Part shown: positions 10,457 to 14,661 of the stretch, one piece after another
How the letters are laid out: each line of letters starts with the position of its first letter
Numbering within the stretch: the stretch's first letter is position 1
Virus record (IMG/VR): IMGVR_UViG_3300007513_000035
Location: 1 to 62,731 of that record
Length of the DNA stretch: 62,731 nt
Direction: 5' to 3' (one strand)
Source of the DNA: a virus
Position numbers and translations under genes: made by a program
Notes under the pieces: generated by a model
Database searches by the model: none
What the model was told of the DNA's origin: nothing
Seen by the model: only the letters and a program-made list of their open reading frames with translations

Positions 10457-12850
10457 CTACAGTCTCTGCGTCAAGACTCCCTGGCCGCCGGAAATTGATC
10501 CGTTGGCAAGTGAAGCTATTAGATTACCCTTACCCTCATCAGTTAACTCAAGAGAAAGATTAATATTGATCGAAGGTGCATTCTCAGTGGCAGCTGTTAT
10601 TAGAGCCTGGCTAGCCTCATTCAACTTGGTTACAGCACCTGTTAGACTCACCTCGACAGGTGCCAGTGTGGGCACCTCGAGACTGAGTGCTGACAATCCG
10701 GTAAACTGGGATGCGATCTGAGCGCCTCTTGCGGCAATCTGTCCCTCGAGCTCAGATGTTGCCACACCAAACTCCTCGCGAATCCTATCTAAGGGAGAAA
10801 GGAATTCCCTAGCAGCCTCAGAGAGGTCAGATTCTGAAAGAGCATCAATGATTCCTTCGGTAAAGCGTAATCCAAATGGGCTTGGAGACTCGCCGAGGTA
10901 GCCATTCCCCTCAGCGACCCGATCCATATTGGCGAACAACTCACCGGCGGCTTGGGCGACTGATTCTGCAGAAGCTGGGGAATTTATGGCATCGGTCATA
11001 CCTTCGGCAAAGGCCAGGCCCGTATCTGTCCCCAGGGACATGCCAACGATATTTCTCCCGATCCCTTGAAGGCTCTCTGGGTCTAACGATATCTCCGCTG
11101 CAACACCTGTAACGTCCTCTCTTATATCACTAAAGAAGGTTCGCATGGATCCGGCGAGTTTTCCCATAGGGCTGGTTGGGTTTTCAGCATCGAGCTGCTC
11201 CGTGAGCACCCTGGCTGTCTCTTCACCCATCCCTCTACCAATCTCCTCTGCCACGGGTCGCATCTCAACTTCAAAGGTTAGGGCGAGACCGTCCATCTCA
11301 TCCTTCATCTGTCCCATAAAGCCTTCTGGCCCGGTCAGACCTTCTCGAATTCCAGCGAGTGTTCCCTCAGCCAGACTTCCCGGCACACTTCCCAGTGCAC
11401 CGGCAAACCTAACTGTCGAGTTTGCTGATCTTTCGGTATCCTCAGCGATGAGAGCCAGCTCACTCTGGGTCTGTGACATACCGGCCCGTATCTGAGCATC
11501 AGTAAATGCATCCCGAAACTGTTTAGCTGTCTGACCAATGGTTCTCTGAACCCTCGCCATGTCAGTATCGAAATCTCTGATCAGATCTTCCTGCGTATAT
11601 TCCTCAGCGCTGGGTCCCTCAGCAAGGGCATCCGCCTGGCCCGCCAGAATGTCTTCAATCTCCTGCACATCCTGAGCTGCCAGAATTCTCTGCATGTCTT
11701 CGACTTCTAGATTGTACTGAGAGGCTGTTGCCCTTGCCATTGCCAGGTTATCAGTAAAGTTCTCGGCTGTCACACCTGCATCAAGCATTGACGTTCGAAC
11801 CAGATCCATCATGTGGTGCTGGCCCTGGTTTGCCGCAGTCATGGCCTCAGTAACGTCAATATTAATCCCCATCAGGGCATTTAAGTTAGCAGCGGCCTGT
11901 GCTGCTCCTTCAAAGCTTTGAAACTGACCCACAACGCTAGAGAGAGACTGGAAGTCGAGGCCCATCTGGGAAAGCTGCGCTGATGCAGCAGCCATGGTTG
12001 ACTCTGTCATGTTACCAAAGTTTTTAACATCCTTGGTCATATCCACTACGTTGGCAGCGATAATCTTCGAGCTTACATCTGTAGCTCCCTCGGTAGCCTT
12101 GATAGTCCTGGCAACATTCATCAGCAGATCATCATTGGCCTCGCCTGTCATGTCAATCTGTCTCTGGACAAACAGCGCAGAATCTGCCTGGGAGATGTTC
12201 AGAGCCTTCATCGCAAGGGCTGTGCTCTCTGTCGTCTCTCGGGAGTCACCGGCGAGGAAAGCAACCGCATCCCTGTTGTCTTGTGCTATGCTGTGAAAGA
12301 GCTGGGAGAGTGCTGATTGATCTTCAAACAGATCAAACATCGTGAGGCTGGTTCCCTCAATACCTGTATAGAACTCCTCATACATCTCCCCCACAGCCCG
12401 GTTCGCCTCGGCAGCCTGCTTATTCGCACCCGTGGCATGTTCGTCTATGGCGCCAAAAGTACCACCAAATGCCTGCTGAATCTCAAAAAACTCCTCCCGC
12501 AAGGGACCGCCATGCGCTTGCATTATATCGAATAGACCTTCGACCTGGCTAAACATGGAATCAAGCATGCCCTTGGCCTGGCCGGCGACGCCGGATATTT
12601 CTTCAAACAGGCCCCCAGCGATTCCCACGGTGTCGCCTGAGTCCACTCCGGTGGCCAGACTAGCCAGTGAGAGACCCCCTAGGGCGGCCCCGGCTGCCAA
12701 AAGACCCATCTCTAGCTTCCGAGCGTCGGTGGTAGCCGACGCCATCTGGGTCTGATAATCACCTAGCTCTTCAGTGAGCGTTCTATACTGCGTCGTGAGG
12801 GTTCCCACCGCATCAACTGCTTCATCAGTCTGGGTTCTATATGCGCCCAT
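10457..12850 (-). CDS. Tape measure protein (start uncertain)
   Basis: This is the best tape-measure candidate: at least 797 residues, helical, Ala/Gln/Glu-rich, with a hydrophobic segment LAAGAALGGLSLASLATG near residues 51-68. It lies after the tube and tail-chaperone genes and before the baseplate genes. Tape measure proteins fill the tube lumen and set tail length. The usual rule of about 0.15 nm per residue would give roughly 120 nm. The first ATG (12850) has no ribosome site. The same frame stays open upstream to the TAA at 12952-12950, encoding an acidic/Ala-rich stretch with the reading EEDEPDADADAAARSQQTLA, and a GAGGA ribosome-like site lies at 12960-12956. No ATG, GTG or TTG occurs in that extension, so the true start may be non-standard. 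The gene is clearly richer in GC than its neighbours. Confidence 0.8.
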   Translation of the reverse strand: MGAYRTQTDEAVDAVGTLTTQYRTLTEELGDYQTQMASATTDARKLEMGLLAAGAALGGLSLASLATGVDSGDTVGIAGGLFEEISGVAGQAKGMLDSMFSQVEGLFDIMQAHGGPLREEFFEIQQAFGGTFGAIDEHATGANKQAAEANRAVGEMYEEFYTGIEGTSLTMFDLFEDQSALSQLFHSIAQDNRDAVAFLAGDSRETTESTALAMKALNISQADSALFVQRQIDMTGEANDDLLMNVARTIKATEGATDVSSKIIAANVVDMTKDVKNFGNMTESTMAAASAQLSQMGLDFQSLSSVVGQFQSFEGAAQAAANLNALMGINIDVTEAMTAANQGQHHMMDLVRTSMLDAGVTAENFTDNLAMARATASQYNLEVEDMQRILAAQDVQEIEDILAGQADALAEGPSAEEYTQEDLIRDFDTDMARVQRTIGQTAKQFRDAFTDAQIRAGMSQTQSELALIAEDTERSANSTVRFAGALGSVPGSLAEGTLAGIREGLTGPEGFMGQMKDEMDGLALTFEVEMRPVAEEIGRGMGEETARVLTEQLDAENPTSPMGKLAGSMRTFFSDIREDVTGVAAEISLDPESLQGIGRNIVGMSLGTDTGLAFAEGMTDAINSPASAESVAQAAGELFANMDRVAEGNGYLGESPSPFGLRFTEGIIDALSESDLSEAAREFLSPLDRIREEFGVATSELEGQIAARGAQIASQFTGLSALSLEVPTLAPVEVSLTGAVTKLNEASQALITAATENAPSININLSLELTDEGKGNLIASLANGSISGGQGVLTQRL

Positions 12851-12987
12851 GGAAACAACGGCGGCATCCAGCTCTTCAGCTAAAGTTTGTTGAGATCGCG
12901 CGGCAGCGTCGGCGTCGGCGTCTGGTTCGTCTTCTTCGACCGTTCTAAATTAAAATCCTCAATAATAAGTATTATGAAAACAAATTA

Positions 12988-13236
12988 TCAAGTAAACCTT
13001 CTTAATTTAGCGGGAACCTGGGCTCTATCTTTTCCTGTTAGCGCTCTGATGTCTGCCGTGTTATCACTAGCAGATTTTGAAGATCCTGTGCCTTTGATCT
13101 CTTTAATGATCCTGTCTATGAACCAGGACCTGTATCTAATAGGAATATTTCGACACTCTATGTATGACATTCCTAAATAATATTGGAGTAAGAAGAATTG
13201 CTCGAGACACAACTCCCTATAGTCACTCCCCAGGCC
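12988..13236 (-). CDS. Tail-assembly chaperone downstream frame (likely frameshift-fused)
   Basis: This is a short frame with LCLEQFFLLQYYLGMSYIEC and a helix ending RYRSWFIDRIIKEIKG, followed by a Lys/Ala-rich tail. It sits between the gp26-like zinc protein and the tape measure, where phages commonly encode the second part of a tail-assembly chaperone made by frameshifting (lambda G-GT and many others). The only possible independent starts are TTG at 13212, with AGGGAG directly touching it, and ATG at 13170, with AGGA one base away; both spacings are poor. The frame is open upstream without a stop through the T7 run of the gp26-like gene (13243-13237), and switching into it needs +1 or -2. 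I therefore annotate it as the extension of that gene. Sequence support is good; proof would be peptide data. Confidence 0.65.
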   Translation of the reverse strand, partial: GLGSDYRELCLEQFFLLQYYLGMSYIECRNIPIRYRSWFIDRIIKEIKGTGSSKSASDNTADIRALTGKDRAQVPAKLRRFT

Positions 13237-14083
13237 AAAAAAACCCGGTTCCCAACGGTAGCTGAATCTTAGAGGTATCTCCGCAACTATTACACTCTAG
13301 AGTCGTGGACATATCAACACCGGGTTCGTGATCCGTCATGTATGTCCTCAATTTTCTAGAGTCAAGTGCTGGCATATTATTAACAAAAGTCTTAATCTTG
13401 TTGCGATCTGTAATCCCGTCTACAGATAACACAGTCTTCTCTAATCGTCTCGTCACTGTACTCTCTGTTTTCATATCGGGTAATAACAGTCGCATCTTCT
13501 CAGCTTCTGCTGCCATCTCCTCTTCGTCAGCTCCCGTCAGGAACTTAAACTCCACTTTTTTCTTTGTTACCGGAAGGGTAAACTCAAATCTATTTTCTCC
13601 CTCTACTGCAGGCTCTATTTCAAGAGGTTTAATCCCGAGGTCAGCAAGGTTAAACTCATGGGATGTCGATGTATTGCACTTCGGGCACATCGCACGAGTT
13701 GTATATGTTTGTCCGTACCCCGTAATTCTAATTGCAATCATTACGGCGTTTCTATCCCCTACAATGAGATCTCTAGATCTAATACTGTCATCAATCAGGC
13801 ATGACTCAATTAGCTCGGTAATAACCGTACCTTTTCTAAGAAGTGCACGCGAGGTTAAAATATCTTCCTCTCTGGCAGTCATTGCTCTAATGTCAACAGT
13901 TTTAGCGCTATATAGCGGGCTATCGGGTGGGTAGATCATCCCTTGTGACGGGACCGGAACTGTCTCAACAGGAACCTCCCACCCAAAGTCATCTCTCATG
14001 ACATTTACCCTTGGTATCGAGTCATTCCCCGCAGCAGGTCCGCCAAATATTTCATTTCTCGGTCTGGTGTCTTCGCTAGACAA
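13223..14083 (-). CDS. gp26: T4 gp26-like baseplate/tail-assembly protein with zinc-binding Cys pairs
   Basis: A 286-residue protein resembling the T4 baseplate family that includes gp26. It has two Cys pairs, CPKC (133-136) and CNSC (264-267), which together look like a split zinc ribbon. The N-terminal half contains the family-like SQGMIYPPDSPLY and the helix MTAREEDILTSRALLRKG. In T4-like and other contractile phages these proteins are encoded just before the tape measure and act in hub or tape-measure assembly. The start is TTG at 14083 with AAGGG upstream. Near the 3' end the gene reads GGG TTT TTT TGG and stops eight residues after a seven-T run. That run lies where a frameshift into the next frame would make a longer fusion protein. 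The family call is good; T4 gp26's own role is structural, while a chaperone role here is inferred. Confidence 0.75.
   Translation of the reverse strand: MSSEDTRPRNEIFGGPAAGNDSIPRVNVMRDDFGWEVPVETVPVPSQGMIYPPDSPLYSAKTVDIRAMTAREEDILTSRALLRKGTVITELIESCLIDDSIRSRDLIVGDRNAVMIAIRITGYGQTYTTRAMCPKCNTSTSHEFNLADLGIKPLEIEPAVEGENRFEFTLPVTKKKVEFKFLTGADEEEMAAEAEKMRLLLPDMKTESTVTRRLEKTVLSVDGITDRNKIKTFVNNMPALDSRKLRTYMTDHEPGVDMSTTLECNSCGDTSKIQLPLGTGFFWPGE
13235..13243 (-). other. Candidate programmed frameshift site (T7 slippery run)
   Basis: On the minus strand seven consecutive T residues (13243-13237) followed by GG lie just before the stop of the gp26-like gene. Codons in the gene frame are TTT TTT TGG; the downstream frame reads TTT TTT GGC and is open for about 80 more codons. 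The change required is +1 or -2. Phage Mu is a known case of a -2 shift at the same place in the tail gene order. No strong downstream hairpin was evident by eye. Confidence 0.5.
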
Positions 14084-14169: not shown

Positions 14170-14661
14170 TTAGTACTGAAGAACGCAATTATCAATTCTC
14201 AGCTGAAGATCAATTGCCATCGGTGTAGTCGCATCGCTGTAGTCTAAATCTTGAAAATTTGCACTTTTTATCATACAACCTTTCATGTCCCAAAGCTCAA
14301 CAACAGTTCCAACGGGATCAAGTAGCTTAAGCTGACAATCTCTCTTATAGAAATCTGCGTAACCAGCGCGGCCAGAAACAGACTCATAGTGAGTTCTAAT
14401 CCATTCCATTACCTGTTGTGCCCCAGATGGCGCAATCGGATCATGTAAAGAAACTCGAACTTCTCCAAAAGTCATCTTTCCGTTAAGATAACGAATGGCG
14501 TTAATGAAGTCTATTTTAATCTCATCAAATTGAAACGTTGGTCTTTGAGCAGTCTTCATTAAGAAAGCGTCAACTCCCTCTATTTGAAAAATCCACCGAT
14601 ATTTTCTCTTTGGCTCAAATTTATTAGGAAGCATTTCGCTAACTGATAAGGTAGTTGCCAT
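14170..14661 (-). CDS. gp19: Tail tube protein gp19
   Basis: At 163 residues it equals the length of T4 gp19. The sequence reads as a typical tube subunit: NKFEPKRKYRWIFQIEGVDA near the N-terminus, the central beta hairpin region RYLNGKMTFGEVRVSLHDP, and a C-terminus with AIDLQLRIDNCVLQY. Hexamers stack to form the inner tube through which DNA passes. It follows the second sheath gene, and only one tube gene is present despite two sheath genes. The ATG at 14661 has a good ribosome site (AGGAG). The downstream gap carries inverted repeats. Strong call from motif content, size and order. Confidence 0.92.
   Translation of the reverse strand: MATTLSVSEMLPNKFEPKRKYRWIFQIEGVDAFLMKTAQRPTFQFDEIKIDFINAIRYLNGKMTFGEVRVSLHDPIAPSGAQQVMEWIRTHYESVSGRAGYADFYKRDCQLKLLDPVGTVVELWDMKGCMIKSANFQDLDYSDATTPMAIDLQLRIDNCVLQY

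Follow-up and report, generated by a model that had tools for sequence, protein, structure and literature searches.

A probable +1 programmed frameshift in a gp26-like tail assembly chaperone gene of an IMG/VR virus record

A 2016 review describes frameshifting of the G-T type as a conserved trait of long-tailed phages, "except T4"; it also lists one likely +1 case of a tail chaperone, in the archaeal virus HSTV-2 (PMC5009743). According to PMC12846349 and PMC10885494, the tail assembly chaperone (TAC) genes of T4-like phages were identified by Vladimirov, Gautam and Davidson (Virology 2022, 566:9-15); citing that work, the former describes poly-T -1 frameshift signals in the genes for the short chaperone, TAC-N, and the latter some T4-like phages that do not frameshift and carry a separate short gene together with a fused long gene. 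For influenza PA-X, mass spectrometry has demonstrated a +1 slip on UUU_C (PMC3498833). Here we analysed a virus record of 62,731 bases from IMG/VR (IMGVR_UViG_3300007513_000035; the window, meaning this whole stretch), in which a gp26-like gene ends close behind a run of T and overlaps a small second frame. From sequence comparison and fold modelling we consider it highly probable that the gp26-like protein is a TAC-N, and that a programmed +1 ribosomal frameshift yields a long form, TAC-NC. The abstract of the 2022 study reportedly describes conserved frameshifting in several T4-like groups, and names genes 26 and 51 as those used by T4. Going by these papers, the rule that gp26-like proteins can be frameshifted chaperones, which a sequence-only reading of the window had put forward as a new extension to T4-type clusters, is already published, and it is the +1 direction that appears to be new.

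A conserved second frame at the end of the gp26-like gene

The gp26-like gene lies on the minus strand at 13223..14083, with a putative TTG start at 14083, and encodes 286 residues that belong to family PF12322 (63.3 bits against a curated cut-off of 24.5) and match phrog_150 at E 7.3e-20. Its 3' end reads ACC GGG TTT TTT TGG CCT GGG GAG TGA, in which TTT TTT TGG (13235..13243) is the proposed slip site and TGA (13223..13225) the zero-frame stop. The second frame, at an offset of +1 (equally -2), has no stop from 13296 until the TGA at 12990..12988, which takes it 82 codons beyond the slip site; the part from GGC to TGA (12988..13236) would encode TAC-C, the domain at the C-terminus of the long chaperone, and is conserved in relatives. 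The T run, the gp26-like stop, the second open frame and its ambiguous offset had all been noted by the sequence-only reading and are present as described, except that the TTTTTTT run (13243..13237) begins six codons ahead of the stop and not eight. The run alone is cheap evidence, because the window holds 34 homopolymers of at least 7 nucleotides.

Conservation carries more information. From IMG/VR we collected 80 relatives that are 48-56% identical to the gp26-like protein, most of the loci coming from one collection, and in all those with enough sequence the +1 frame stays open through the T run and for ~190-280 nucleotides past the zero-frame stop. After removal of duplicates, 71/71 judgeable loci of close relatives (clade A) are +1, with two more stopping at a contig end, as are 59/59 judgeable Immutovirus-like loci (clade B), and the cultured phages immuto, Mel-JY01, SP-15, LIS04 and GXN1 display the same layout. 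One scan of genome contigs accounts for 10 loci; plasmid records gave no match. The predicted C-domains are alignable, with the pattern GLTPxDKExxLEQxFLLMYYxGFSYxExYNxPIWxRxWFIxRINxE, frequently ending in LRRFT. Codons 8-17 in the +1 frame, which lie between the zero-frame stop and the first usual methionine, have a diversity of 0.38/0.25/0.64 at positions 1/2/3, thus highest at the third position, as for a translated frame. Judged by these comparisons, the open and conserved +1 frame is not a product of chance.

The C-domain might instead be encoded by a gene of its own, with translation by coupling or from a start that is leaderless or non-canonical, and there are observations in favour of this: the second frame of the window contains a TTG at 13212, and in the distant relatives 121Q, phiM9, Cygsa01 and LR756511 an ATG overlaps the stop. 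However, the +1 frame is conserved upstream of every possible start, and clade A has neither a conserved start nor a conserved spacing. ATG, GTG and TTG are all absent near the site in 68/71 clade A loci and ATG in 71/71, no conserved ribosome site for the second frame was found among them, and the sole Shine-Dalgarno-like sequence nearby in the window, AGGGAG, directly abuts the TTG. The earlier statement that the frame lacks a usable start needs the correction that this TTG does exist. Because the frame is conserved before any methionine while starts and ribosome site are missing, we infer that translation must enter from the upstream gp26-like frame; an independent start was rejected on grounds of conservation and missing starts, and we regard it as very improbable. 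The second frame thus has no start of its own and, traced upstream, remains open through a conserved slip site at the 3' end of the gp26-like frame. The pattern named beforehand as speaking against frameshifting, namely independent starts without a conserved run, is not what the homologues display: they have no conserved start and retain the slippery codons.

Proposed slip site and direction of the shift

In 135/135 of the +1 loci, a zero-frame UUU has U or C as its next base, which places them in the UUU_Y class of +1 sites (PA-X type), and a +1 step of tRNA-Phe is possible in all. Clade A uses TTT TTT TGG (57), TTT CTT TGG (14) and TTC TTT TGG (3), and clade B uses TTT CTT TGG, TTT TTT TGG, three times TTT CTA TGG and once TTT CTT TAC. 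When the second codon in clade A encodes Phe it is TTT in 60/60 loci and never TTC, though TTC makes up 39% of upstream Phe codons; when it encodes Leu it is CTT in 14/14. TGG follows the slip codons in all of clade A and in all but one of clade B, and the A site is occupied by a sense codon (TTT or TGG). In tests of the RF2 type, UUU is reported to rank with the codons most prone to slipping (PMC10885494). The frames, their conservation, the missing starts and this codon constraint are properties of the aligned sequences themselves; the slippery codons and the offset, which the sequence-only reading had proposed to follow through homologues, are kept as zero-frame UUU_Y and +1 in all judgeable loci, and the conserved frame and slippery codons lend good support to its proposal that a frameshifted chaperone joins the gp26-like protein to the frame downstream.

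We propose that a fraction of ribosomes with P-site tRNA-Phe on UUU would move ahead by one base to the overlapping UUU, or in some relatives to UUC, and would continue to GGC in the +1 frame, producing a TAC-NC that consists of TAC-N plus a helical C-terminal domain of 82 residues. The identical frame would result from a programmed -2 frameshift of the kind found in Mu-like phages, if it took place at the T run, and the T7 run of the window would permit the re-pairing. The variant TTC TTT TGG, found in three clade A loci, argues against a -2 step because tRNA-Phe would need to re-pair on UCU, as it would at TTC TTT CGT in GXN1, and the TTT CTA TGG loci fit only a +1 slip on UUU_C; we hold a -2 shift to be very improbable. 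A homopolymer such as that of the window could also reflect transcriptional slippage or an assembly indel, but the run is broken in many loci (TTTCTTT, TTCTTTT) with unchanged offset, and an indel does not explain it because the offset is common to independent assemblies and cultured genomes. This last explanation is barely credible. Both -2 and transcriptional slippage were rejected on the interrupted T runs, and the same variants settle the choice between +1 and -2, previously left undecided, in favour of +1.

In the Gram-positive phages SP-15, GXN1 and LIS04 (L085, L086, L087), a CGA stands soon after the Phe pair, in the contexts CAC GCC CGA, CGT CCC CGA and AGT ACC CGA, respectively. A +1 slip just ahead of this CGA is an alternative site in the three phages.

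The known -1 poly-T signal combines a U_UUU_UUN heptamer with a second frame offset by -1 and does not fit the window, where the offset is +1 and the base preceding the first TTT is G. Across clades A and B, a T before the first TTT completes this heptamer in 2/130 loci, versus 75/75 cyanophage-type loci. These cyanophage-type homologues (S-RIM8 and IMG/VR relatives) have T TTT TTC with the -1 frame open in 75/75 cases, and Aeromonas phage 65.2, OLIVR6, PA5oct and contig L093 do likewise. In a tree of N-domains the direction labels are strongly clustered, with two or three changes against a shuffled mean of ~20, long branches limiting how far switches can be counted or ordered. Using hhalign, whose figures here are single-pair values and not database searches, C-domain profiles of clade A matched those of clade B at 97.9% and those of cyanophages at 81%, and the whole fusions of clade A and cyanophages matched at 96.5%; T4 gp51 reached a probability of 84% against the cyanophage fusion versus 1.9%, hence no support, against that of clade A.

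We lean slightly towards the reading that a homologous pair has kept a frameshift at the same Phe-Phe codons with a direction that varies by lineage, being -1 if U precedes UUU UUC (cyanophages, Aeromonas 65.2, OLIVR6, PA5oct) and +1 if it does not and UUU_Y is present (the window clade, Immutovirus, SP-15, LIS04, GXN1, Mel-JY01). If true, the neighbouring base may set the slip direction, and UUU_Y would be a widespread bacterial +1 site needing no stop codon, Shine-Dalgarno sequence or strong RNA structure. With natural -1 and +1 sites in the same position of homologous genes, the determinants of slip direction in bacteria could be tested by small changes, and the fused, overlapping or frameshifted pairs found among relatives illustrate different routes to a two-form chaperone.

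Predicted folds and neighbouring genes

TAC-N and TAC-C were modelled separately, not as a fusion. The AlphaFold model of TAC-N has a predicted local distance difference test score (pLDDT) of 88.5, and VIA-align against solved structures placed the HK97 tail assembly chaperone 2OB9 first (Z 6.1, root-mean-square deviation 2.9, 76 aligned) and YqbN 3KLU second (Z 5.8, root-mean-square deviation 3.0, 80 aligned); both matches cover TAC-N residues 35-124, and the next rows have Z 4.1 and 2.6. YqbN is one of the XkdN-type chaperones carried by prophage elements of B. subtilis. By these two best matches, of middling Z, a chaperone-like fold of the N-domain is supported by the model. Plain Foldseek on TAC-N returned nothing with E <0.9, and a sequence search of the PDB gave no match for TAC-N or TAC-C. 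The TAC-C model is helical and confident over approximately residues 11-40, its fold search gave nothing meaningful, and the window TAC-C alone had no credible match in PHROGs and Pfam. PF20546 (DUF6760) matches 23/48 TAC-C relatives, with a best E of 1.1e-7, and does not match the window TAC-C.

DUF6760 is also encoded in bacterial gene clusters beside tube-like genes (bacterial genomes L273, L274, L278, L279 and L280). In these clusters DUF6760 comes after a short N-like protein: it lies in the -1 frame in L273 (G GGA AAG) and L278 (G GGG GAA), the two are joined by an overlapping TGATG in L274, and they form a single-frame fusion in L279 and L280. The same chaperone pair may serve contractile injection systems too.

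Several points weigh against a +1 frameshift at the gp26-like gene. Slippage itself, its efficiency, its function and its stimulator are inferred. No consistent downstream RNA structure was found to explain it (tested against simple mononucleotide shuffles), nor any internal Shine-Dalgarno sequence, an SD-like sequence being present in 31/71 clade A loci. The structural matches of TAC-N are middling (VIA Z ~6). Loci within a clade are related, so their counts are not independent and the codon statistics overstate significance.

Read along the minus strand, the tail tube gene comes first, followed by the gp26-like gene, the small second frame and a large open reading frame (ORF) of 797 residues. 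The tail tube gene (14170..14661, minus strand; phrog_4542, E 2.9e-25) is the upstream neighbour of the gp26-like gene. The large ORF (10457..12850, minus strand; first ATG at 12850) had no family match in profile searches (PHROGs and Pfam); an ORF of at least 300 codons directly follows the second frame in 53/54 relatives with enough sequence, and a tape measure is annotated at the equivalent place in immuto, SP-15 and LIS04. The 797-residue ORF is presumed to be the tape measure from its position and these annotated cultured relatives. The two overlapping frames therefore lie between a tail tube gene assigned by profile and a tape measure gene assigned by position only, so that the gene order proposed earlier (tube, pair, tape measure) stands for the tube and for a large ORF next in line, with the tape measure itself resting on its place. 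The presumed tape measure frame is also open 5' of the ATG at 12850 through DEPDADADAAARSQQ (12850-12960), where there is no ATG, GTG or TTG.

Recognising the pair corrects truncated annotations: immuto has only a 111-nucleotide fragment of the C-domain annotated, and LIS04 nothing. In deposited annotations of cultured phages with the +1 layout (L083 4839-4949, L084 4734-4970, L085 4755-4874), the C-domain is given as a fragment or a separate hypothetical protein.

Comparison with known frameshift systems

The T4-like TACs share with the window pair the family PF12322, the neighbours and the Phe-Phe codons towards the 3' end as the place of the slip, and their cyanophage C-domain profile is related to that of the window clade. 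The difference is that the window clade would shift +1 at [CGA] TTT YTT TGG, the first base being C, G or A, whereas theirs is a -1 shift at T TTT TTC. The window pair also differs from T4 (genes 26 and 51) in being neither fused nor split into two genes.

Like lambda gpG/gpGT, the pair is placed between tube and tape measure genes and would comprise a short and an extended form, and the window N-domain model resembles the tail assembly chaperone of HK97 (2OB9). Slip site and direction differ from those of lambda (-1, GGGAAAG), and no sequence similarity was detected. Taken together, the fold model, the position and the layout support, by analogy, a gpG/gpGT-like role, in which the tape measure protein would be coated by numerous short chaperones and a small number of long ones, and TAC-C would recruit tube subunits.

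As to mechanism, influenza A PA-X (UCC_UUU_CGU, +1) has the same P-site tRNA-Phe slip on UUU_Y, and Streptococcus phage GXN1 carries the similar TTC TTT CGT; however, PA-X belongs to a eukaryotic virus and has the rare CGU in the A site, whereas window-type loci mostly have TGG. E. coli RF2 (prfB, CUU_UGA) also slips +1 onto UUU, and the CTT TGG variant could re-pair likewise, but the A site of window-type loci is a sense codon and clade A has no conserved SD-like sequence. Finally, in HSTV-2, which is an archaeal myovirus, a pair of tail chaperone genes has likewise been proposed to use a +1 shift.
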